Source: Sinosporangium album
GTDB lineage: Bacteria > Actinomycetota > Actinomycetes > Streptosporangiales > Streptosporangiaceae
Length of the DNA stretch: 64,000 nt
Direction: 5' to 3'
Assembly: GCF_900100605.1 (NCBI RefSeq)
Contig: NZ_FNCN01000007.1
Coordinates: forward strand, 186,001 to 250,000
In this document: positions 8,518-24,051 of the stretch, one piece after another
How the letters are laid out: every line of letters begins with the position of its first letter
Numbering within the stretch: the stretch's first letter is position 1
Notes under the pieces: model-generated
Databases searched by the model: none
What the model was told of the DNA's origin: nothing
What the model saw: the letters and a program-made list of their open reading frames with translations, nothing else
Program-made: the position numbers and the translations under genes

Positions 8518-9753
8518 ATGGCGCAGACCGTGAAGCGGGCCTACAAGTACCGCTTCCACCCGACCCCCGGACAGGCCGCAGAGCTCGCCCGGACGTTCGG
8601 CTGCGTCCGCCTCGTCTACAACAAGGCCTTGGAGGAGCGGACCCGCGCCTACAGGCTGGAAGGCCGCCGCGTCTCCTTCGTGGAGTCGTCGGCCGCGCTG
8701 ACCGCGTGGAAGCGGAGCGGCGACTACGATTTCCTGTTCGAGGTGTCGTCGGTTCCGCTGCAGCAGGCGCTGCGCCATCTGCAGGCCGGGTTCGCGAACT
8801 TCTTCGCCAGGCGGGCGAAGTATCCGGTGTTCAAGAGCAGGAAGAGGTCGCGGGCGTCGGCGGAGTACACCCGCTCGGCGTTCCGGTGGCGCAACGGCAC
8901 GCTGACGCTGGCGAAGATGGACGGCCCGCTGGACATCGTGTGGTCGCGCCCGCTGCCGGAGGGTGCCGAGCCGTCCACGGTCACCGTGTCCAGGGACGCG
9001 GCCGGGCGGTGGTTCGTGTCCATCCTGGTGGAGGAGGAGATCGCCCCTCTGCCCCCGGTCGAGGCGTCGGTGGGCGTGGACGCGGGCATCACCGCCCTGG
9101 CCACCCTCTCCACCGGCGAGAAGATCGTCAACCCGCGTCACGAGCGGGCCGACCGCCGCAAGCTGGCCAAGGCGCAGCGGGCGCTCGCCCGCAAGGAGAA
9201 AGGGTCGAACAACCGGGCCAGGGCCCGGCTCAAGGCGGCGCGTATCCACGCCCGCATCACCGACCGCAGAAGGGACCACCTGCACAAGGTCACCACACGG
9301 CTTGTTCGCGAAAACCAAGTGATCGCCGTGGAGGACCTGACCGTCCGCAACATGGTCCGCAACCACTCCCTGGCCCGCGCCGTCAGCGATGCGTCCTGGC
9401 GGGAGCTGCGGACGATGCTGGAGTACAAGGCCGCCTGGTACGGCCGGGAACTGGTCGCGGTCGACCGGTGGTTCCCCAGCTCGAAGCTGTGCTCGGAGTG
9501 CGGGGCGCTGCAGGGGTCGATGCCGCTGGGTGTCCGGATGTGGGAGTGCCCGTGCGGGGCGGTCCACGACCGGGATGTCAACGCCGCGAAGAACATCCTC
9601 GCCGCCGGGCTGGCGGAGAGGCGAAACGCCTGTGGAGCCGGTGTAAGACCTCAAAGGGGGATTCCTCCTGGCGGGCGGCTGGCGGTGAAGCAGGAAGGCC
9701 GACCGGTGACGGTTGGAATCCCCTCCCTTCAGGGAGGGGAGGATGTCAAGTGA
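8518..9753 (+). CDS. tnpB: TnpB, RNA-guided RuvC nuclease of an IS605-type element
   Basis: 411 aa, full length. An N-terminal helical region (KRAYKYRFHPTPGQ, FGCVRLVYNKAL) is followed by an OB-like part and a split RuvC domain: Asp188 in VGVDAGI, Glu272 in IAVEDL, and Asp353 in HDRDVNAAKNI. A zinc ribbon uses Cys325/Cys328 and Cys344/Cys346. All three acidic residues are present, so the nuclease should be active. TnpB proteins use an RNA from the element's right end to cut target DNA and favour retention of the element. The ATG at 8518 follows a leader with three hairpins; no strong ribosome site is visible. Confidence 0.93.
   Translation: MAQTVKRAYKYRFHPTPGQAAELARTFGCVRLVYNKALEERTRAYRLEGRRVSFVESSAALTAWKRSGDYDFLFEVSSVPLQQALRHLQAGFANFFARRAKYPVFKSRKRSRASAEYTRSAFRWRNGTLTLAKMDGPLDIVWSRPLPEGAEPSTVTVSRDAAGRWFVSILVEEEIAPLPPVEASVGVDAGITALATLSTGEKIVNPRHERADRRKLAKAQRALARKEKGSNNRARARLKAARIHARITDRRRDHLHKVTTRLVRENQVIAVEDLTVRNMVRNHSLARAVSDASWRELRTMLEYKAAWYGRELVAVDRWFPSSKLCSECGALQGSMPLGVRMWECPCGAVHDRDVNAAKNILAAGLAERRNACGAGVRPQRGIPPGGRLAVKQEGRPVTVGIPSLQGGEDVK
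9600..9750 (+). ncRNA. Probable omega/reRNA of the TnpB element
   Basis: In characterised IS605-type elements the guide RNA covers the 3' end of tnpB and the right end. Here that stretch contains the small GGCG-AAA-CGCC hairpin (9620-9630) and the terminal hairpin at 9720-9739. The guide would be the bases just after about 9750. This is inferred from position and structure only. Confidence 0.35.
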
Positions 9754-11376: not shown

Positions 11377-12753
11377 TCAGGAGGCGAGGACTGCATCGTT
11401 GAGATCCGTTGCGGCGTGCGGTGAGCGTCGGGCGATGAGCGCCGCGACCTGCCGGGTTTGGCCGACCAGCAACGGAACGCGCAAGTCGGCTGGAAGTGCC
11501 GTGATCGCATCGCTAGCGATCTTGGCGGCCTGGTCGGAGTCTCCCTGACCGGCAACGTAGCGGGCCCGGTCAAGCAGAATGAGGGGCCGGTCCATGGGGT
11601 CGTCGTCGGGATAGGCGGCCAGCGCCCTGTCCTGCTCGTCCCAAGCGCGTGCGTCGCCCGTCCGGCTGAGGACCTGCGAGCTGTACATGGTCATTTCGGC
11701 CTTGGGGAACCCGAAGAACGGCTCATCGGTCTGGCCGGGAGTCAGCTTCCCGAAGATGGTCTGGGCGGTGTCGAGTTCGGCGACGGCTCGGTCACCGGCA
11801 CCGAGGTGCGCGTGGGCTCGGGCGGCGAGCCCGGCGAGTTGGGCGGCGGGTGCGCTCGGCGTCCGGCCCAGGGTCGCGCGCGCACGGTCGGTGATGGCTA
11901 TGACGCGCGCCGGGGCGGATCCGTAGAAGGCGGTCATGGCTTGGGCCATGGCGATCCAGTATCGCTGTGTGCTGTCTCCGGACAGATGGGCGTATCGGCC
12001 GGCGGTGTGAAGCCAGTCGCGGGCTTCTCTCTCGAAGTCCAGATCGGTGTAGAGCGCTCCGACCAGGCCGCAGAGCCGGGAGGCGATCAGATGAAGGTCG
12101 GTCTGGTGGGGATAGCGTTCGGCGAGTGCGGCGATTTCGTCCAAGTCAGGGCGGAGCTTGGTGAGCAGAAGTCCGGGCGGCCTCGTGCCATAGGCGGCGA
12201 CGTGTCCGGCTGCGACGTCCGCCCAGTGTTCGAGGTCGGCCGCTGGGAGGACTCGCCGGAGCCCGGTCTCCATCCGTGACCGGGTGTCTTCCAGGCTGAT
12301 CAGCGGTGTGGCGGCGGCGAGGGAGAGGAACTGTCGGCGCTCCAAGGGGTCCTCCGGGTCGGTCAGCACTACCGGAACCTGAGCATGCCCTACCAGAGTA
12401 GCGATCGGTTCCGGTTCCGCCAGTCCGAGTCGTTCCAGGGGACAGCGGAACCACAGGGCGAGGTAGCGCCGGTAGAAGGTCCCTGGACCGCCGTGACCAT
12501 TCTCCCACTTGGAGTAGTTCTGGACCGATGGTGCGCCGTCCGTGCAGGGGTGGCCTTCGTCGGTTGCCAGGCCGCGCACTCCTGCGATCACGTCCGTCTG
12601 GACCTGCCCGGATGCCAGGCGCCAGGCCATCAGCAGGGTGGGGGTGGCTGCTTCCTGGTGAACGGCCTGCACAAGCTGCCACGGGCTCCAGCTTTCCTTC
12701 GCGGCTCTGGCGCGCAATTCGGTGGTGATCGTCTCGCGTCCCTGGAGGTCCAC
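11377..12753 (-). CDS. XRE-type transcriptional regulator with TPR-like C-terminal region
   Basis: 458 aa from GTG 12753; the open frame extends to 12816 but through the operator palindromes. No ribosome site is visible, so translation may be leaderless. The N-terminal region (WSPWQLVQAVH, then APSVQNYSKWENGHGGP) is a diverged XRE HTH. The rest consists of tetratricopeptide-like helices (HLSGDSTQRYWIAMAQAM, LAGLAARAHAHLGAGDRAVA). Such regulators commonly sit divergently beside lanthipeptide genes in actinomycetes. The 33-bp inverted repeat just upstream is the likely binding site controlling both this gene and the lanthipeptide operon. Confidence 0.85.
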   Translation of the reverse strand: MDLQGRETITTELRARAAKESWSPWQLVQAVHQEAATPTLLMAWRLASGQVQTDVIAGVRGLATDEGHPCTDGAPSVQNYSKWENGHGGPGTFYRRYLALWFRCPLERLGLAEPEPIATLVGHAQVPVVLTDPEDPLERRQFLSLAAATPLISLEDTRSRMETGLRRVLPAADLEHWADVAAGHVAAYGTRPPGLLLTKLRPDLDEIAALAERYPHQTDLHLIASRLCGLVGALYTDLDFEREARDWLHTAGRYAHLSGDSTQRYWIAMAQAMTAFYGSAPARVIAITDRARATLGRTPSAPAAQLAGLAARAHAHLGAGDRAVAELDTAQTIFGKLTPGQTDEPFFGFPKAEMTMYSSQVLSRTGDARAWDEQDRALAAYPDDDPMDRPLILLDRARYVAGQGDSDQAAKIASDAITALPADLRVPLLVGQTRQVAALIARRSPHAATDLNDAVLAS

Positions 12754-12791
12754 GAGCGCACGGTAACACCGATGTCCTGACAAGCAAGGCC

Positions 12792-12824
12792 CAACCGGGT
12801 TGTGGCCCGACCACAACCCGGTTG
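12792..12824. promoter_or_regulatory. Operator-like perfect inverted repeat in regulator/lanthipeptide intergenic region
   Basis: CAACCGGGTTGTGG, spacer CCCGA, CCACAACCCGGTTG: 14-bp perfect arms. Each arm contains its own palindrome CAACCGGGTTG / CAACCCGGTTG, so the site could hold two dimers. It lies about 39 bp before the regulator GTG and 80 bp before the precursor ATG, suited to controlling both directions. Confidence 0.65.
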
Positions 12825-12903
12825 TGAGTAAGTGGGAATTTCACGCCGTCGTTGAACGGGGTTGGGTGAAGACATCGCTTATCCGACTTGAGGAGGCTCT
12901 CCC

Positions 12904-13056
12904 ATGACCGTCCAGTCTGCTGCCCAGGACGTCGCGGAGCCCGGCTCGCTACTCGCAGGGCTCGACATCACGGTCGTGGAGGCCGGACCGGCGACCCTGT
13001 CGCGCAGATGCTCCACCGACAACGGGTGTGACACGCTCGCGAACGGCGACTGCTGA
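12904..13056 (+). CDS. lanA: Lanthipeptide precursor, FxLD-like
   Basis: 50 aa from ATG 12904, with AGGAGG 7 bp upstream. The leader contains LLAGLDITVVEAGP (residues 16-29), the same place and style as the FxLD motif (F-x-L-D followed by V-E-x-G/S) of FxLD-family precursors, but with Gly-Leu-Asp in place of Phe-x-Leu-Asp. The C-terminal core CSTDNGCDTLANGDC (36-50) holds three Cys (36, 42, 50), with Ser33, Ser37, Thr38 and Thr44 as dehydration candidates and four Asp/Asn-rich positions. It is followed by lanB, lanC and an FxLD-type methyltransferase, so the product is probably a small three-ring lanthipeptide with a modified aspartate. The cleavage site is unknown; it may lie near Arg34-Arg35. 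Confidence 0.85.
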   Translation: MTVQSAAQDVAEPGSLLAGLDITVVEAGPATLSRRCSTDNGCDTLANGDC

Positions 13057-13069
13057 TCCGTCCCCGCCG

Positions 13070-13103
13070 GCGGTGACCCCCGCCCCTCCCTGGGGGTCAC
13101 CGC
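13070..13103 (+). terminator. Strong hairpin between precursor and lanB (attenuator-like)
   Basis: GCGGTGACCCCC and GGGGGTCACCGC form a perfect 12-bp stem with a 10-nt loop, 14 bp after the precursor stop and 46 bp before the lanB start. There is no U-run, so partial termination or 3'-end stabilisation of precursor mRNA is likely, giving more peptide than enzymes. Confidence 0.65.
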
Positions 13104-13148
13104 TCGCCTTCACCCAGCCGGACCTTCGTAGTGCCCAAGGAGTCAGCA

Positions 13149-16100
13149 ATGCCCTCCCATCGGTGGTATGCGCCTGTGGATGCGGCCATGCTCCGCGCGG
13201 CGACCGTTGCCGACGCTTTTGTCCCGCCTTCGCCGTGGCCGAATGTCGACCAGGACGCCAGCCGCGAGGAGATGTGCCAGTGGATCGCCAAGGTTTGGTC
13301 CGACACGCAGATCGCCGACGCGGTCAGGATTGCCAGCCCGAGCCTGGCGGATCGAATCGACGGCATCTGCGCTGGAGGGCGTCCTCCGAGAGCTCAGAGT
13401 CGGCGCGCTCTGTTGGCGCTTGCCTGCTACCTGCTGCGGATGCGAGGCCGCTCCACGCCGTTCGGGCTGTTCGCGGGAGTGACCTCGTTGCGGTGGGACC
13501 AAGACCCGATCGCCCGGTGGGAGCCCGATCGGCACTGGATCCGTACCCGAGCGCACTCGGTCTGGCTCTCCGCAGTCATCAGCGAGCTGGAAACCCATCC
13601 GGAGCTTGCGCGCCGACTTCCACTCGTCTTGAACGACCTGGCTTTCGAACGCGCAGGTCGTCTGGTCATCCCGTGGCAGCCGCACGCCACCGATCCGGCA
13701 CGGCCCCCGGCAGGCGAGATCTCGCCGTCGATCACTTCTGCGGTCCGGCTCGTCATCGACCACGCCCACACGCACCTCACCACCGATGACCTCACCGGCA
13801 AGATCAGCGCCGAGCTGAACGCTCCCTCTGATGCCGTCGAAGAGCTGCTTCGCCATCTCATCGCCGCGGGTGTTCTCATCACGAGCCTCCGGCCTCCTTC
13901 GACGTGCCGTGACTGCCTCGCTCACCTCCGTGACCGCCTGGCTGAGGCCGACGCAGTCAGCATCCCGGATCTTCAACCGCTGCTTTGCGACCTGGAGCAG
14001 ATCGCCGCCCAGCTCGCCGAGGGACGCATCGAGACCGGCGTGCGGATGCGGGAGCTGGCCGCCGTCGAGCATCCCGTCACGGTCGATCTTCGGGTCGGAG
14101 CCACCGTCGTTCTGCCGCTGCAGATCGCCGACGAAGCTGCGGCGGCTGCCTCTGCCCTGGCCAGGCTGACTCCCCATCCCAGCGGCGACCCCGGCTGGCG
14201 GGTCTACCACGACGCGTTCCTCTCACGGTTCGGAGTGAACGCTATCGTCCCGGTCACGGAGCTGGTCGACCCTGTTACGGGACTCGGCTACCCCGACCAC
14301 TTCGCTGCTCCCGCTGTCGACCTGCCCAGGGAGCTGACCGCCCGCGACGCGCGGCTTCTCGCTCTCGCCCAGCAGGCCGGTCTGGACGGAGCCCGCGAGG
14401 TCGAACTCGATGACGCATTCATCGACGGGCTCCACGACGACGCCGTGAGCCTGCGTATCCCTCCGCACCTTGAGTTGTTCACCCAACTGTGGGCGCCGGA
14501 CACGACAGCTGTCCGCAGCGGGGATTTCCGGCTTGTCATCTCCGGGGTGGCCCGCACCGGTACGGCTCTATCCGGCCGGTTCATCGACCTCTTACCCGAA
14601 GCAGACCAGCGGCATCGCCGAACCGTCTACACCGGATTGCCGACCGTGGTCGAGGGCGCGGTTGCGGCCCAGCTTTCGTTCCCGCCGGTCCACGCGCACC
14701 TGGAGAACGTCGCTCGCGCCCCGCAACTGCTCCCGTCCCTGGTCACCCTGGCGGAGCATCGCATGGGGGCAACCGCCCGGTTCCCGCTGGAGGATCTGGC
14801 GGTCACAGCCGACAGTCGCGGCATGTACCTCATCTCGCTGTCGCAGGGCAGGGTGGTCGAGCCGATGCTCGCCAACGCCGCCGCCCGTCACGTCATGCCG
14901 TCGATGGCCCGGTTCCTGTTCGAGATCTCCCGTGCCCGCATCGCCTCCTCGTCACCGTTCGCGTGGGGAGCAGCCCGATGTCTGCCATTCCTGCCGCGCA
15001 TCACGTACGGCCGGACCATACTGAGCACGGCACGCTGGTCGATCTCACCCGCCGCCCTACCCCGCCCCGATCTCTCGGACGCCCAATGGCGCAAGGAGTT
15101 CGAGACGCTGCGCCATCGTCTCCGGCTTCCAGACACGGTCAGCATCGGCGACTCCGACCTCCGGTTCCGCCTGAACCTCGATGAGCCAATGGATCTGGCG
15201 ATCCTCCGCGACTGCTTGGACCGTGCCGGGGCAACCGGGCATACGACCGTGGTGGCCGAAGGCTCGACCCCCGCTGACCACGGCTGGTTCGACGGCCGCG
15301 CCCACGAACTCGTCATCCCGGTCGCATCCACCCGACCAGCAGGTCCCGCGCCCAGGGCCACGGCTCGATCCGCGGGGCCTGTGATCATCAGGCGGGGTCA
15401 CGGTCTCCTGCCTGGGAGCGGGCATATCCTTCTGGCGAAGCTCTACACCGATCCCAGCGTCTTCGACACGATCCTCGTCCAGCATCTCCCTGAACTGCTG
15501 CATCAATGGCTTACGCCGCCGTCCTGGTGGTTCGTCCGCTACCGGGACCCTCACCCCCATCTACGGCTCCGCCTCCACGCAGGAGACCAAGCCGACGCCT
15601 TCACAAAGGTCAGCGCGTGGGCAACGGACCTGCGCAACCAAGGACTCATCAGAAGCCTCGTCTTCGACACCCATCTTCCCGAAGTAGCCCGCTACGGCGA
15701 CGGTGAGGCCCAAGTTGCAGCAGAGAGGCTTTTTGCCGCGGACTCCATGGCCGTCCTCGCCCAGCTGGCAACCTTGCAACAAGGCCGGAATGTGCACGCG
15801 CTGTCCCTCATCGCGGCAGGCATGGCCGATCTCGTCGGGGGCTTGAGCGGTGGTCGCACGGCCGGGATGGAATGGCTGATCAACTACGGTGATCTCGGGG
15901 CTGGTGACCGACCAGATCGAGACATCGTCCGCCAGGCCGTCCAACTCGCCGAACCCGGCGCGATCATTGATCTGCGCGGCGGCACGGTCATCGCCGATAC
16001 CTGGGCCAGGCGCGCGGATGCGGCAGCCGACTACAGCCGCTACCTGGCCGACAGACAGTCGGAAGCGGCAGGAACAATCCGGTCGCTGCTGCACATGCAC

Positions 16101-16208
16101 CACATCCGCTTCATCGGGATCGACCCCGCGAGCGAACGAACCTGTCACCGGCTCGCCCGTGCCATCGCACTGGCCTGGACCTCACGCCACCGAGAGGTCC
16201 ACCCATGA
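13149..16208 (+). CDS. lanB: Lantibiotic dehydratase LanB, full length
   Basis: 1019 aa from ATG 13149 (AAGGAG 7 bp upstream; a GTG 18 bp earlier lacks a site). Class I dehydratases glutamylate Ser/Thr of the precursor with glutamyl-tRNA and then eliminate glutamate. The N-terminal glutamylation part includes LACYLLRMRGRSTPFGLFAG (ending about residue 114), the conserved R-x-TPFGLFAG hallmark. The C-terminal elimination domain (SpaB_C/thiopeptide-type) runs from about residue 755 (ILLAKLYTDP) through WWFVRYRDPHPHLRLRL to the end. Both halves are in one protein, unlike split thiopeptide systems. Its stop overlaps the lanC start by 4 bp. Confidence 0.93.
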   Translation: MPSHRWYAPVDAAMLRAATVADAFVPPSPWPNVDQDASREEMCQWIAKVWSDTQIADAVRIASPSLADRIDGICAGGRPPRAQSRRALLALACYLLRMRGRSTPFGLFAGVTSLRWDQDPIARWEPDRHWIRTRAHSVWLSAVISELETHPELARRLPLVLNDLAFERAGRLVIPWQPHATDPARPPAGEISPSITSAVRLVIDHAHTHLTTDDLTGKISAELNAPSDAVEELLRHLIAAGVLITSLRPPSTCRDCLAHLRDRLAEADAVSIPDLQPLLCDLEQIAAQLAEGRIETGVRMRELAAVEHPVTVDLRVGATVVLPLQIADEAAAAASALARLTPHPSGDPGWRVYHDAFLSRFGVNAIVPVTELVDPVTGLGYPDHFAAPAVDLPRELTARDARLLALAQQAGLDGAREVELDDAFIDGLHDDAVSLRIPPHLELFTQLWAPDTTAVRSGDFRLVISGVARTGTALSGRFIDLLPEADQRHRRTVYTGLPTVVEGAVAAQLSFPPVHAHLENVARAPQLLPSLVTLAEHRMGATARFPLEDLAVTADSRGMYLISLSQGRVVEPMLANAAARHVMPSMARFLFEISRARIASSSPFAWGAARCLPFLPRITYGRTILSTARWSISPAALPRPDLSDAQWRKEFETLRHRLRLPDTVSIGDSDLRFRLNLDEPMDLAILRDCLDRAGATGHTTVVAEGSTPADHGWFDGRAHELVIPVASTRPAGPAPRATARSAGPVIIRRGHGLLPGSGHILLAKLYTDPSVFDTILVQHLPELLHQWLTPPSWWFVRYRDPHPHLRLRLHAGDQADAFTKVSAWATDLRNQGLIRSLVFDTHLPEVARYGDGEAQVAAERLFAADSMAVLAQLATLQQGRNVHALSLIAAGMADLVGGLSGGRTAGMEWLINYGDLGAGDRPDRDIVRQAVQLAEPGAIIDLRGGTVIADTWARRADAAADYSRYLADRQSEAAGTIRSLLHMHHIRFIGIDPASERTCHRLARAIALAWTSRHREVHP

Positions 16209-17497
16209 AGCACCTGCCAGACCTCGTCCTTCCCTTTGAAGTCGATCAGCAGGCTGCGGGCGTCCTCGCCTCGCGCCTCGCCGATGCGCTGGCCGTCCCG
16301 CCATCGCACCCGGCCGAGGCTGGTGACGGGCCTGACAGCACACGCTGGGACGGCCAGTCCCTGTCCTGCGGGCACGCTGGAATCGCGGTCCTGCACGGCG
16401 TCCGTGCCCTTGACGGTCATGGCGCCTGGACACGCGCGGCCGACTGGTTCACCGCAGCCGTCCGAGAACCGATCGCCGCAGCGGGCGGCGCCGGTCTCTG
16501 GCATGGGGCTCCCGCCGTCGCCTTCGCCCTCCATACCGCCGTCCGACCCGGCGATGCCGATCACCATCTCAACCGGCTCGACGGCGTCATCTCGGCGATG
16601 ACGGATCGCCAGATCAAACGAGCCGACGAACGCATGGCAGCGGGCCGCAGACCCTCGCCTGGGGAGTTCGACCTCGTCCGGGGACTCACTGGTCTGGGTG
16701 TCTACTTCCTGCGCCGCGACCCCACGGGCCCGCACCTTCGTGAAGTGCTCGGCTACCTCATCCGCCTGACCACTCCAGTTCCCGCCGAAGACTCCGCCGG
16801 AACGAGGGCACCAGGCTGGTGGACCAGCCACCTGCCCGAAGGCCGTCCTGCCGTAGACTTCGCCGACGGTCACTCCGACCAGGGCATGGCCCACGGCATC
16901 GCCGGCCCACTCGCCTTGCTCTCCTTGACCTTCCGCGCTGGGATCATCGTCCCCGGCCAGGCCGAAGCGATCATGACGATCAGGGACTGGCTGGAGCGCT
17001 GGCAGCAGACCGGCGAAGCCGGACCGTGGTGGCCGGAACGGCTCACCCTCACCGACCTTGACCAGGCACAACCGCACCAGAAGGGCCCTGCCCGGCCATC
17101 TTGGTGCTACGGAACCCCTGGAATTTCCCGCGCACTACAGCTCGCCGCCCTGGCTCTCAATGATGCCGAGCGCCAGCACCGCGCGGAGCGAGCACTTCTC
17201 GCTTGCGTCACCGACCGATCCCAGCTGTCCCGCCTGGGCAATCTGGCGTTGTGCCACGGTTGGGCCGGGCTGATCGCCACCGTTTGGACGACCGCCGCCG
17301 ACGCCTCCGCACCCGCCCTAGCCCGGCGGCTACCACGTCTCATCGAGGGTCTCATCGGTTCTAGTCATCCCCCGCTGGACAAGCCCGGGTTGATCGATGG
17401 AGCCGCCGGTCTCGCGCTCGTCCTGCACAGCATCGCCACCGGCACGCTCGCCGCTTGGACGAGCTTCCTACTGCTTACTGGAGTAGACCCCACATGA
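16205..17497 (+). CDS. lanC: Lanthionine cyclase LanC
   Basis: 430 aa, overlapping lanB by ATGA. LanC proteins are zinc enzymes that add Cys thiols to dehydro-residues to make lanthionine rings. Zinc ligands Cys301 (SWCYG), Cys350 and His351 (LCHGWAG) are present, and the conserved MAHGIAG His station lies upstream; the GxxG repeats of the alpha/alpha toroid (CGHAGIAV, LVRGLTGLGVY, LIDGAAGLALVL) are seen. The gene overlaps the next one by ATGA, so stoichiometric translation is likely. Confidence 0.93.
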   Translation: MKHLPDLVLPFEVDQQAAGVLASRLADALAVPPSHPAEAGDGPDSTRWDGQSLSCGHAGIAVLHGVRALDGHGAWTRAADWFTAAVREPIAAAGGAGLWHGAPAVAFALHTAVRPGDADHHLNRLDGVISAMTDRQIKRADERMAAGRRPSPGEFDLVRGLTGLGVYFLRRDPTGPHLREVLGYLIRLTTPVPAEDSAGTRAPGWWTSHLPEGRPAVDFADGHSDQGMAHGIAGPLALLSLTFRAGIIVPGQAEAIMTIRDWLERWQQTGEAGPWWPERLTLTDLDQAQPHQKGPARPSWCYGTPGISRALQLAALALNDAERQHRAERALLACVTDRSQLSRLGNLALCHGWAGLIATVWTTAADASAPALARRLPRLIEGLIGSSHPPLDKPGLIDGAAGLALVLHSIATGTLAAWTSFLLLTGVDPT

Positions 17498-19569
17498 TCC
17501 GCCCCCAAGAGGTCGTCGATTCGAGCGAGTGGCGTGAAGCCAGTGTTTGGCACGAGAGCTGGCAAGCCGCCGAACACGCTGCCGTTCACGCCTTCGGCCC
17601 ACAGCTGGTGAACCTGGAAACCGCCGGAGTGATCACCATGTGGTGGTTCACTCGCAAGGGCGCGGAATGGCGTATCCGATACCTTCCGGCCCCTATCCGC
17701 GAGGTTGATGCCGCAGCAGCGATCAGCCGGATCCTTGACGCCGCCGCCACTGAGGGGCTGTGCACCCGGTGGGCTCACACGATCTACGAGCCGCTCATCG
17801 GGGCCTTCGGCGGGCAGGCTTCGCTCGACTCCGCTCACACACTGTTCCACGCGGACAGCCGACAGGTTCTCGGCCACCTCACCATCGGCGGCGGCCACAA
17901 GCGGGAACTCGCCCTTCTCCTGATCGCAGCGATGCTCCGCGGTGCCCACCGGGACTGGTACGACCAAGGGGAAGTGTGGAGACTCCTCACGCAGGAGCGC
18001 ACCATCCCGTCCTCACCCTTGGCCCACGACGACATCGCGACCGTGCAGCAGCTCCTGATCGGCGATACAGAGTCCACACCCGCCAAGATCGGCGTCCCGG
18101 CTTCATGGTTCGCCGCTTATGAGCACGCCGGACAGCGGCATTTCGACCTCGATCGGCTCGGTGTTTGCACACGTGGTCTGAACGCCGTGCTCGCCCACCA
18201 CGCCCTGTACGCCTGGAACCGCCTGGGTCTTCCCGAGCCGGTCCAAGGGGCTCTCGTTGCCGCAGCCGCCCATGCCGTGTTCTGTCCCGGCCTGATCGAT
18301 TCTTCCGCCGCGAACAGCGGGCATGCGGTCGGGCCGATGAGTAATGTCGTCGCGGTGACCACCGACACCACCACTCCTGACCCCAGTCCCGCCGAGCTCC
18401 GCGATGAGCTCGCCGACAAGATTCTCGGTCGCGGTACGTTCCGCACCGCAGCCGTGGAGCGGGCGTTCCGGACCGTGCCCCGCGAAGTCTTCCTCGGCGC
18501 CGTCGAGCTTGCCGAGGCGTACAGGCCCGGGCCGGTGGTGACCAAACGGGCCGGCGACGGCACTGCCCTGTCGTCGGCGTCCGACCCCAACCTCGTCGCG
18601 ACGATGGCCGAAGATCTGGACGTCCGTCCAGGCCATCGCATCCTGGAGATCGGCGCGGCCACGGGCATCAATGCCGCCATTTTAGCCGAGCTCAGCGGCA
18701 CCCAGGGCCGTGTCACCACGATCGAGATCGACCAGGACCTTGCCGCCGGGGCTGCCGCCGCCCTTGCCAAGACTGGCTACACCACTGTCACCGCCATGTG
18801 CGGCGACGGCGCCGCCGGTTGGACGGCGGCTGCCCCCTACGACCGGATCATTGTCACGGCTGGCGCTTGGGACATCTCCGCTCCCTGGTGGGACCAGCTC
18901 GCCACCGGCGGCAGGATCGTCATCCCGCTCCGTCTCCACGGCAGCGGCCTGACCCGCTCCATCGCCTTCGACCTCCAGCCGTCAGGTCACCTCACCTGCA
19001 GCCACACCCGCGTCTGCGGCTTCGTCCCCATGCGCGGAGCAGCCGCCCAGGCCACCACCTCGATCACGCTCGCCGAGCACGTCACCCTCAACATCGACGC
19101 CGCCGACGAAGCCGACCAAGGCGCGCTCGCGCGGGTGCTCACCCACCCCGGCGAGGCCCGGTGGACCGGGATCAACGTCACCGACTTCGAGCCCGTCGAG
19201 CACCTCGATCTGTGGCTCGCTACCCACAGCACCGGCTTCAGCCGACTGTCGGCCGGAGCGCCCGCCCGCCGCGCCGGTATCGCCGATCCGGCACTGCGCT
19301 GGGCGGGTGCCGGGCTCTACGACGGCGCCACCCTCGCCTACATCGCCGCACGCCCGCACGGGCCGGCCTCCAGAGAACTCGGCATCACCGCCCACGGCCC
19401 CGGCAGCCGCAGCCTCACCGATCGCTTCATCGAACTCCTACATGAGTGGAACCACACCCGGCCCGCCCGACCGGTCATCACCGCCCACCGGGCGGACACC
19501 CCCGACGACCGACTCAAGGCCGGGACCCGCATCGAGCGGCCCGACACCCGCCTGACGATCGCCTGGTAG
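17494..19569 (+). CDS. Fusion: thiopeptide-type biosynthesis domain + FxLD-system protein methyltransferase
   Basis: 691 aa from ATG 17494, overlapping lanC. Residues 1 to about 275 resemble the stand-alone thiopeptide-type/SpaB_C domain (SVWHESWQAAEHAAVHAFGP, WWFTRKGAEWRIRYLP, FDLDRLGVCTRGLNAVLAH). After an internal Met282 the remainder is a PIMT-like (protein-L-isoaspartate O-methyltransferase) enzyme: RTAAVERAFRTVPREVFLG, the SAM motif ILEIGAATGINAAIL (about 383-397), TTIEIDQDLA and YDRIIVTAGAWDI. This is the methyltransferase of FxLD lanthipeptide systems. Related LanS enzymes methylate a core Asp that then forms succinimide/isoaspartate. Met282 may mark an ancestral separate gene. Since LanB already has its own elimination domain, the N-terminal half may be a partner or substrate-binding module. 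Confidence 0.85.
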   Translation: MIRPQEVVDSSEWREASVWHESWQAAEHAAVHAFGPQLVNLETAGVITMWWFTRKGAEWRIRYLPAPIREVDAAAAISRILDAAATEGLCTRWAHTIYEPLIGAFGGQASLDSAHTLFHADSRQVLGHLTIGGGHKRELALLLIAAMLRGAHRDWYDQGEVWRLLTQERTIPSSPLAHDDIATVQQLLIGDTESTPAKIGVPASWFAAYEHAGQRHFDLDRLGVCTRGLNAVLAHHALYAWNRLGLPEPVQGALVAAAAHAVFCPGLIDSSAANSGHAVGPMSNVVAVTTDTTTPDPSPAELRDELADKILGRGTFRTAAVERAFRTVPREVFLGAVELAEAYRPGPVVTKRAGDGTALSSASDPNLVATMAEDLDVRPGHRILEIGAATGINAAILAELSGTQGRVTTIEIDQDLAAGAAAALAKTGYTTVTAMCGDGAAGWTAAAPYDRIIVTAGAWDISAPWWDQLATGGRIVIPLRLHGSGLTRSIAFDLQPSGHLTCSHTRVCGFVPMRGAAAQATTSITLAEHVTLNIDAADEADQGALARVLTHPGEARWTGINVTDFEPVEHLDLWLATHSTGFSRLSAGAPARRAGIADPALRWAGAGLYDGATLAYIAARPHGPASRELGITAHGPGSRSLTDRFIELLHEWNHTRPARPVITAHRADTPDDRLKAGTRIERPDTRLTIAW

Positions 19570-19595
19570 CAACCTCGCCCATGGAGGTGCCGCGC

Positions 19596-19850
19596 ATGGA
19601 CACCCGAACCGCACCGCAGCGCCTCACTGACCTGGCCGCGCGCCGCTTCCCGCTGGTCGCGCGGTCCCAGGTCATCTCCCGGCCGCTCTCCACCCGAATC
19701 AGCCAGATCGAATCCCGAGCCGGGCAAGCTCGGCAGAACGGGCCCGACGGCGTCCTCCGCGCCGCCGAAGCCCTCAATCTGGCGGCTCTCCTGCTCAGCG
19801 ACCTCGGCATCCCACACCTGGCCCGCGGTCGGTCTGGACGCCGCCTTTCC
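19596..19850 (+). pseudogene. Start of an unrecognised RiPP-neighbour gene, frameshifted
   Basis: ATG 19596 has GGAGG 8 bp upstream. About 78 codons read as protein (RFPLVARSQVISRPLSTRIS, then AEALNLAALLLSDLGIPHLAR), then the frame becomes Arg-rich and ends at 19889. The text resembles small helical proteins often found beside XRE-regulated loci, but I cannot name it. The loss of frame near 19830 suggests a broken gene. Confidence 0.5.
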
Positions 19851-23275: not shown

Positions 23276-23360
23276 CGTTCGCTCCAGACGTCCATTGTTT
23301 GAGTTGACGAACGGCATCAGCTATGTCCATTCTATTAGGTATGCGTTCGTTATGGCGAAC
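23276..23360. promoter_or_regulatory. Cluster of CGTTCG/CGAACG sites before azlC
   Basis: CGTTCG at 23276-23281, CGAACG at 23308-23313, and GTTCG-N6-CGAAC at 23345-23360 overlapping the azlC start. A TTGACG at 23304-23309 could be a -35. The repetition suggests operator half-sites for the divergent XRE-cupin regulator. Confidence 0.45.
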
Positions 23361-24051
23361 TGTTGATCGCGACACGCTTCGCGACATCGTTCTCGTGTGC
23401 CTCGCCGACGCGGTCGTCGCGGTCTCCTTCGGCGCGATCGCCGTGTCCGGCGGTCTGTCGCCGTGGGTGCCGATCGTGATGTCGCTGCTGGTCTTCGCGG
23501 GCGGCGCCCAGTTCGCCGCCCTCGGCGTGGTCCTCGCCGGGGGCGGCCCGGTCGCCGCCGTCGCCACCGGGCTGCTGCTCAACGCGCGGCTCCTGCCGTT
23601 CGGCTTCGCCGTGGCCGACGTGGTGGGCCGCCGGTGGTGGACGCGGCTGATCGGCGCGCACCTGATGACCGACGAGGCCGTGGCGTTCGCGCTGCGCCAC
23701 AGCGACCCGCGGCAGCGCCGCGCGGCGTACTGGGTCTGCGCGATCATGCTGTTCGTCCTCTGGAACGTCGCCGTCGTCGTGGGAGCGCTCGCAGGCGGCA
23801 TGGTGGGCGACACCAACGTCCTCGGGCTGGACGCGGCGTTCCCCGCGGTCCTGCTGGCGCTGACGCTGCCGGCGCTCACCGACCGGGGCGTCCGCGACTC
23901 CGCGCTGCTGGGGGCGGCCGTCGCGCTGGCTGCGGCGATGTTCCTGCCCGCCGGGCTTCCCGTGCTGCTGGCGCTGGTGGGCCTGGTCGCGCTGCTGCGC
24001 CGGCCGCAGGTGGCCGGCGCCCAGATCGATCCCGACTGGAAGGTGAGCTGA
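23341..24051 (+). CDS. azlC: AzlC-family branched-chain amino-acid exporter, large subunit
   Basis: 236 aa from ATG 23341; an ATG at 23323 is possible but neither has a ribosome site, and the family begins at about RDIVLVCLADAV. Six or so membrane segments with VSFGAIAVSGGLSPWVPIVM and VFAGGAQFAALG, typical of AzlC. With AzlD it exports branched-chain or related amino acids. Its stop overlaps the azlD start. Confidence 0.9.
   Translation: MRSLWRTVDRDTLRDIVLVCLADAVVAVSFGAIAVSGGLSPWVPIVMSLLVFAGGAQFAALGVVLAGGGPVAAVATGLLLNARLLPFGFAVADVVGRRWWTRLIGAHLMTDEAVAFALRHSDPRQRRAAYWVCAIMLFVLWNVAVVVGALAGGMVGDTNVLGLDAAFPAVLLALTLPALTDRGVRDSALLGAAVALAAAMFLPAGLPVLLALVGLVALLRRPQVAGAQIDPDWKVS

Follow-up and report, generated by a model that had tools for sequence, protein, structure and literature searches.

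An FxLD-like, coi-type lanthipeptide cluster of Sinosporangium album from a small clade with linked departures in leader, fused lyase and modification site

The stretch of DNA analysed here (the window) comprises 64,000 nucleotides of Sinosporangium album (contig NZ_FNCN01000007.1, positions 186,001 to 250,000). It contains an FxLD-like, coi-type lanthipeptide cluster of known architecture, in which a short precursor gene is followed by genes for a LanB dehydratase, a LanC cyclase and a fusion of a glutamyl lyase with a methyltransferase resembling protein isoaspartyl methyltransferases (PIMTs; Table 1). The small clade to which the cluster belongs shows three linked departures, in the leader of the precursor, in the active site of the fused lyase and in the modification site of the core. 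Very probably, the cluster is of class I and coi-type and functions in the manner of a 'lanthimiditide' system.

From the gene content, family membership, residue patterns and clade described below, we infer the following reactions, ring topology and target residue. LanB would glutamylate Thr residues of the core and its own C-terminal anti-lyase would give (Z)-dehydrobutyrine, while the syn-type lyase fused to the methyltransferase is predicted to give (E)-dehydrobutyrine at one Thr. LanC would close two methyllanthionine rings, Thr38–Cys42 and, most likely, Thr44–Cys50. The PIMT-like domain would then methylate a ring residue, leading to aspartimide and on to isoaspartate. Because the clade departs from the family rule in leader, syn-lyase active site and modification site, its syn-lyase may be altered or weak, and the methylated residue may be either Asp39 or an isoaspartate at position 40 formed by Asn-Gly deamidation.

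The precursor, LanB, LanC and fusion genes are all intact. Open reading frames (ORFs) and profile matches bear out the preliminary description of this DNA, made from the sequence without database searches, which had proposed a 50-residue precursor followed by a full LanB, a LanC and a lyase–methyltransferase fusion. LanB matches Lant_dehydr_N (597.9 bits) and Lant_dehydr_C (143.7 bits) of Pfam as well as the structures of MibB (5ehk, 2e-73) and NisB (4wd9). For LanB, the ATG at 13149, which lies behind AAGGAG, is a more probable start than the GTG at 13131; the precursor start is preceded by GAGGAGG. In the fusion, thiopep_ocin covers residues 13-262, with profile matches to MibB and NisB, and methyltran_FxLD covers residues 300-691. 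The methyltransferase half matches the Thermotoga maritima PIMT 1dl5 (7e-25) and clears the curated TIGR04364 cut-off (421.7 against 320 bits), which places it inside the FxLD family, where the preliminary description had expected it. With a LanB, a LanC and a core containing Ser, Thr and Cys, the locus is a class I lanthipeptide locus; a full LanB with anti-lyase residues and a second lyase fused to the methyltransferase make it coi-type. The precursor scores 28.3 bits with TIGR04363 (E 1.3e-6; cut-off 30), and its frame, the other feature by which the locus was to stand or fall, is conserved in alignments of relatives and thus is no mere chance ORF.

Earlier work already covers the fusion, the doubled lyase and the chemistry of the methyltransferase. 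PMC7268733 describes full LanBs accompanied by an additional protein with an elimination domain, which is frequently joined to a methyltransferase of the PIMT family, and raises the possibility of another role for this protein. In the coi cluster of Streptomyces coelicolor, syn-elimination is assigned to the glutamyl lyase domain fused in CoiSA, which stands beside a LanB with a canonical anti-lyase and gives (E)-dehydrobutyrine and D-allo-L-methyllanthionine (PMC9486935). Since both features are described in these papers, we rejected the fusion and the additional elimination domain beside a full LanB as novelties, although the preliminary description had presented them as such. NCBI uses the name fxlM for lyase–methyltransferase fusions of this kind. 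The lyase SptBb and its syn-elimination have also been reported (PMC9011353, PMC9890492), and aspartimide in lanthipeptides has been reviewed, with mention of fusion to glutamyl lyases (PMC13001092). This review was the only yield of a literature search on lanthipeptides, deamidation and isoaspartyl methyltransferases jointly.

Four known systems are closest to the locus. The coi cluster of S. coelicolor A3(2) (CoiA1, CoiB, CoiC, CoiSA) likewise combines a full LanB with canonical lyase, a LanC and a syn-glutamyl lyase fused to a PIMT-like methyltransferase, and likewise has no protease in the cluster. However, CoiA1 has three methyllanthionine rings, two of them overlapping at the C-terminus, whereas the window core has two conserved Thr and two conserved Cys, and Glu89 of CoiSA is Leu in the window, a comparison made through the residues named in the paper rather than through sequences (PMC9486935). 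The olv cluster resembles the window in that a LanSA methyltransferase, OlvSA, acts on a ring Asp beside a LanB/LanC lanthipeptide, but olv is described as having no additional lyase, and the target in OlvA is Asp where the window has Asn (PMC13001092, PMC7268733, PMC9486935). In the spt cluster of SapT, a syn-glutamyl lyase of the same type occurs with a split LanB, and the available text mentions no methyltransferase (PMC9011353, PMC9890492). Lastly, two fxlM operons on Streptomyces plasmids (NZ_CP109396, NZ_CP109461) share the order precursor–LanB–LanC–fusion, with the fusion 48% identical, and a core of the form TDDGCDT...GDC, and one of the two precursors is annotated as 'FxLD family lanthipeptide'. 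They differ from the window in the leader (LDLS/LDLD), in Asp at the modification site, in keeping the syn-lyase Glu and in carrying Arg in place of Ala104.

The leader L(A/D)GLD and the core [RK]CSTDNGCDT are shared by the window and three other stretches, L184, L186 and L187, and the same four loci are those in which the syn-lyase Glu is changed. A profile of the four precursors was run against 341 genomes of the family, with 19 candidate places scored per listed genome. At 1e-6 it found 7 genomes: the four clade members scored 99-114 bits, and the remaining three, which have different leaders, about 50 bits. The clade, which comprises 4 genomes of four genera (by group codes), is monophyletic both in the lyase tree (Shimodaira–Hasegawa-like approximate likelihood ratio test, 99) and in the LanB tree (FastTree, local SH-like support 100). 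The changed leader is real and inherited. LAGLD misses the F/L-x-L-D motif, either keeping LD with one extra residue or having Ala at the Phe position, and for this reason the locus is classified by its enzymes and the precursor is called FxLD-like. The off-consensus leader noticed in the preliminary description thus marks a four-member clade; its novelty as a changed recognition motif holds for L(A/D)GLD itself, but variation from FxLD to LxLD is already in print (PMC12710340).

The core, CSTDNGCDTLANGDC, has three Cys (36, 42, 50) and three Asp (39, 43, 49), as first described. It was compared with precursors found beside these clusters, 80 in all, identical last 40 residues being counted once and L027, whose frame runs on, being dropped; the two Streptomyces plasmid precursors and L200, which has no methyltransferase in its stretch, were kept outside the counts. 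A subfamily was defined by the C-terminal pattern T-x-[DN]-G-C-[DS]-T-x4/5-x-C, to which 14 of the 80 conform. Across the first six aligned members, Thr38, Cys42, Thr44 and Cys50 do not vary; Cys36 is found in the LAGLD clade and a handful of other loci (L049, L183, L200, L203), and Ser37 is not conserved. With two Thr and two Cys conserved, two rings are predicted, and the target would be Asp39, or Asn40 via deamidation. The three-ring core proposed earlier was rejected, as its first Cys and Ser are not conserved.

At the Asp position of TxDGC, the subfamily has Asn in 10 cores and Asp in 4, against 63 Asp, 2 Asn and 1 Gly in the other 66 precursors. The window is among those with Asn at this third position (Asn40), together with 9 of the 13 other subfamily cores. 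The preceding residue, which is free in the pattern, is Asp in 14/14 members and in 31/66 precursors elsewhere; both plasmid precursors have Asp at both positions. These frequencies bear on a reading that we regard as possible, at somewhat less than even chances, namely that Asn40 is the effective site: the Asn-Gly in the ring would deamidate via succinimide to isoaspartate, which an ordinary isoaspartate methyltransferase would recycle. Canonical PIMTs do act on isoaspartate (PMC13001092), and the prevalence of Asn in the subfamily agrees with this; the Gly after Asn40 is a condition of the pattern and was not counted as evidence. However, the position is Asp in 4 of the 14 cores and in both plasmid relatives, and the invariant Asp before it, which the pattern does not fix, may be the target instead. 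We keep the proposal that the cluster works like a lanthimiditide system, even with Asn40 in place of the TxDGC Asp.

The lyases were compared by aligning their residues on NisB numbering. In the published hallmarks of syn-lyases, Lys takes the place of the Tyr of anti-lyases and a hydrophobic residue that of NisB Arg826, with two Arg shared by both types (PMC9486935). The fused lyase of the window has precisely this set (K55, R60, R62, A104), and the lyase of its LanB keeps Tyr and the equivalents of R784, R786, E823, R826 and H961. In NisB, H961A abolishes dehydration and R784A is nearly harmless in vivo (PMC4341554). All 63 distinct extra-lyase domains have Lys at the LanB-lyase Tyr position, and 62 of 92 rows of the C-terminal LanB domain (LanB-C), which include overlapping fragments of some genes, have Tyr. 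The R826 equivalent is absent from 62 of the 63 domains, the exception being L035, which has Arg. L035 and the fused lyases L219 and L220 on Streptomyces plasmids mix the syn-type Lys with Arg at the R826 position. The syn-lyase Glu is kept in 59/63; the exceptions are Leu in the window and Pro in L184, L186 and L187.

This Glu is not the only residue altered in the clade. Among columns conserved in at least 93% of other rows, a set of rows that differs between domains, those changed in all four members number 6 of 39 in the syn-lyase, 1 of 36 in the methyltransferase, 2 of 53 in the N-terminal LanB domain (LanB-N), 0 of 55 in LanC and 0 of 11 in LanB-C, where decayed copies and fragments leave few such columns. 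The six changes are E to L/P, E to D, D to E/H, L to C/T, R to N/H and F to Y/S. As a control, 38 clades of 3-14 rows were taken from the lyase tree: no other has at least 6 changes, the runner-up shows 4, and 2 occur in a clade whose stem is twice as long. Members of the LAGLD clade share a mean identity of 52.5% in the syn-lyase, 51.8% in LanB-C, 57.3% in LanB-N, 58.5% in LanC and 67.5% in the methyltransferase (46.1, 47.2, 47.6, 56.4 and 49.6%, respectively, among nine related loci outside it). By this measure the syn-lyase of the clade is kept about as well as LanB-C and well behind the methyltransferase.

It is conceivable, if rather unlikely, that the fused domain of the clade no longer acts as a lyase and has been kept as a pseudo-lyase, to bind the altered leader or core, or to position it, for the methyltransferase, with LanB performing all eliminations. 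The excess of changed columns, the change of leader in the same clade, the retention of all LanB-C catalytic residues in 4/4 members and the conservation of the fused domain at the level of LanB-C are in its favour. However, the catalytic Lys and both Arg are also kept in 4/4, and the Glu is not critical in CoiSA: E89A, at the counterpart of NisB Glu823, altered dehydration without abolishing it and still yielded the 3-fold dehydrated peptide, CoiB also being present in the assay, and Arg mutants of CoiSA were likewise not severely impaired (PMC9486935). Moreover, the domain is less conserved than the methyltransferase, LanB-N and LanC, and plain relaxation may explain part of the pattern. A dead lyase as the leading reading, based on Glu to Leu/Pro by analogy with NisB, was rejected given the activity of CoiSA E89A and the retained Lys. 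The pattern fits an altered syn-lyase, which may still eliminate, since Lys and Arg remain and CoiSA E89A is active.

More generally, the survey covered 80 genomes of the family, of which 49 had TIGR04364 matches at 1e-80 or better, 109 in all; the regions around 97 of these were taken and their domains modelled. The fusion recurs, a point raised in the preliminary description: among 97 methyltransferase ORFs above 300 bits in L020-L110, 15 include an in-frame lyase domain, fragmentary in L057. Four arrangements were found: (i) a full LanB with a fusion (the window, L034, L035, L036, L038, L042, L184, L186, L187, L196, L199, L202); (ii) a LanB without lyase domain, with a fusion (L025, L039-L041, L043-L045, L198); (iii) a methyltransferase, full LanB, LanC and stand-alone lyase; and (iv) a full LanB and methyltransferase, with no extra lyase found. 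The remaining methyltransferases had no LanB within the stretch taken. Several of these arrangements occur in the S. album genome itself, which holds 8 methyltransferases above the TIGR04364 cut-off (contigs C26, C34, C40, C50, C52, C55, C60, C64). Three of the 8 frames are long enough for a fusion, and all three (L022, L025, L028) carry a lyase domain. In the fusion of L022 (contig C26), one conserved Arg is Cys, and LanB and LanC were not found in its 16-kb stretch.

The LanB lyase is changed (14) or absent (8) in 22 of 63 LanB rows with an extra lyase nearby and in 0 of 13 without (Fisher p 0.015; L183, cut off by the contig end, was left out). On the tree, there is one change of extra-lyase presence, with four LanB-lyase losses and one independent pair. 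Decay of the LanB lyase through substitution by the extra lyase was considered, and the pattern is consistent with it, but it amounts to one phylogenetic contrast. A stronger point comes from the 8 clusters whose LanB showed no lyase domain, since the fused lyase was the sole one detected there. In ten further clusters (L020, L056, L059, L061, L064, L066, L070, L104, L109, L211), the C-terminal lyase of LanB has lost the R784 and R786 equivalents and a stand-alone syn-type lyase is present, which suggests that the syn-lyase does the eliminations there.

Several points weigh against the pathway proposed for the window. The C-terminal Thr proposed as the site of dehydration by CoiSA is missing from its core, which leaves the syn-lyase here without an evident substrate; the precursor falls 1.7 bits below the TIGR04363 cut-off; the comparison of 22/63 with 0/13 is a single phylogenetic contrast in a non-random sample, which makes its p of 0.015 overstated; and the proposed product is a prediction from sequence. 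In addition, the copy in the sister species Sinosporangium siamense is decayed and the gene downstream of the window cluster is truncated, and the locus may be losing function. In S. siamense, three stretches (L009, L050, L136) were searched as protein and the first two also as DNA. DNA matched only window positions 15919-17264 and 18247-19827, at about 90%, and protein only LanB 925-1017, LanC 1-353 and fusion 262-689; without a match in these stretches are the precursor, the bulk of LanB, the last part of LanC and almost the entire syn-lyase. L009/L050 represent a decayed copy of the cluster with an internal deletion over nearly all of the syn-lyase domain, although an assembly fault is a possible cause of the gaps. 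That the window cluster is itself decaying and non-functional, as this copy and the truncation of a conserved downstream gene might indicate, is improbable, because its precursor, LanB, LanC and both fusion halves are open, the catalytic residues checked are kept and the clade extends over 4 genera, with one genome from each.

The gene list of the preliminary description lacked two flanking genes. A divergent NsdA-family regulator, for which a PDB search gave no match, precedes the precursor, and its homologues also adjoin the precursor in L184, L186, L187 and L036. Downstream, 19596-19889 matches the first ~80 residues of a protein with an uninterrupted frame of 381-386 codons in L187 and L184; L034, L036, L186 and L203 gave further matches. 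The frame ends early in the window, a similar 95-residue stretch occurs in L009, and in L186 the similarity also crosses between frames. Profile searches assigned this protein to no family, with a sub-threshold TPR match in one homologue only. The absence of a protease from the locus, noted earlier, extends to the 20 neighbouring ORFs (a subset of those in the window) scanned with Pfam, among which there was no peptidase or peptide exporter; an AzlC-family gene at 23323-24051 was the sole transporter-like match. A promoter and terminator scan of 12700-13200 and a tRNA scan of the window found nothing. Elsewhere in the window, a TnpB/OrfB-type IS605-family protein (OrfB_IS605 and Cas12f1-like TNB domains) is encoded at 8518-9753, about 3 kb upstream of the precursor, and a single ORF of 10,262 codons occupies 25712-56500, its first 3000 residues being a modular polyketide synthase (KS, AT, DH, KR, ACP, docking domain).

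Table 1. Features of the lanthipeptide locus, in window coordinates
Feature	Position	Strand	Basis
LanA precursor, 50 aa	12904..13056	+	TIGR04363, just under the cut-off; conservation in relatives
LAGLD leader motif, precursor residues 17-21	12952..12966	+	read from sequence; L(A/D)GLD in 4/4 clade members
TDNGC, predicted first methyllanthionine ring (Asp39; Asn40 where most relatives have Asp)	13015..13029	+	precursor alignments
LanB, full-length glutamyl-tRNA-dependent dehydratase, 1019 aa from ATG	13149..16208	+	Pfam PF04738 and PF14028
LanB C-terminal anti-type glutamyl lyase	15429..16166	+	Tyr and NisB R784/R786/E823/R826/H961 equivalents kept
LanC cyclase	16205..17497	+	PF05147 (LANC_like), 125.8 bits
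CoiSA-like fusion protein, 691 aa	17494..19569	+	two domains, thiopep_ocin and methyltran_FxLD
Syn-type glutamyl lyase domain of the fusion	17530..18279	+	thiopep_ocin, 119.4 bits; Lys55, Arg60, Arg62, Ala104; Leu101 replaces family Glu
PIMT-like (LanSA/FxLD) methyltransferase domain of the fusion	18391..19566	+	TIGR04364, 421.7 bits
NsdA-family TPR-like regulator, ~479 aa, start codon uncertain	11377..12816	-	NCBIfam NF053720, 118.3 bits (cut-off 75)
Truncated start of a gene reaching ~380 aa in L184 and L187	19596..19889	+	protein similarity to relatives

There is a slim chance that in this clade the syn-glutamyl lyase has become a partner of the methyltransferase that is no lyase or acts differently, coupled to the new leader, with an encoded Asn-Gly, as a self-forming succinimide, replacing the enzyme-methylated Asp. 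The clade offers natural variants for the leader signals that class I enzymes accept and for the residues that a syn-glutamyl lyase needs, as it has lost the Glu of the other 59 domains (compare CoiSA E89A). It also bears on the question whether Asn-Gly can encode an aspartimide-type modification in place of an enzyme-methylated Asp. All three points could be tested by co-expression in Escherichia coli, as used for coi.

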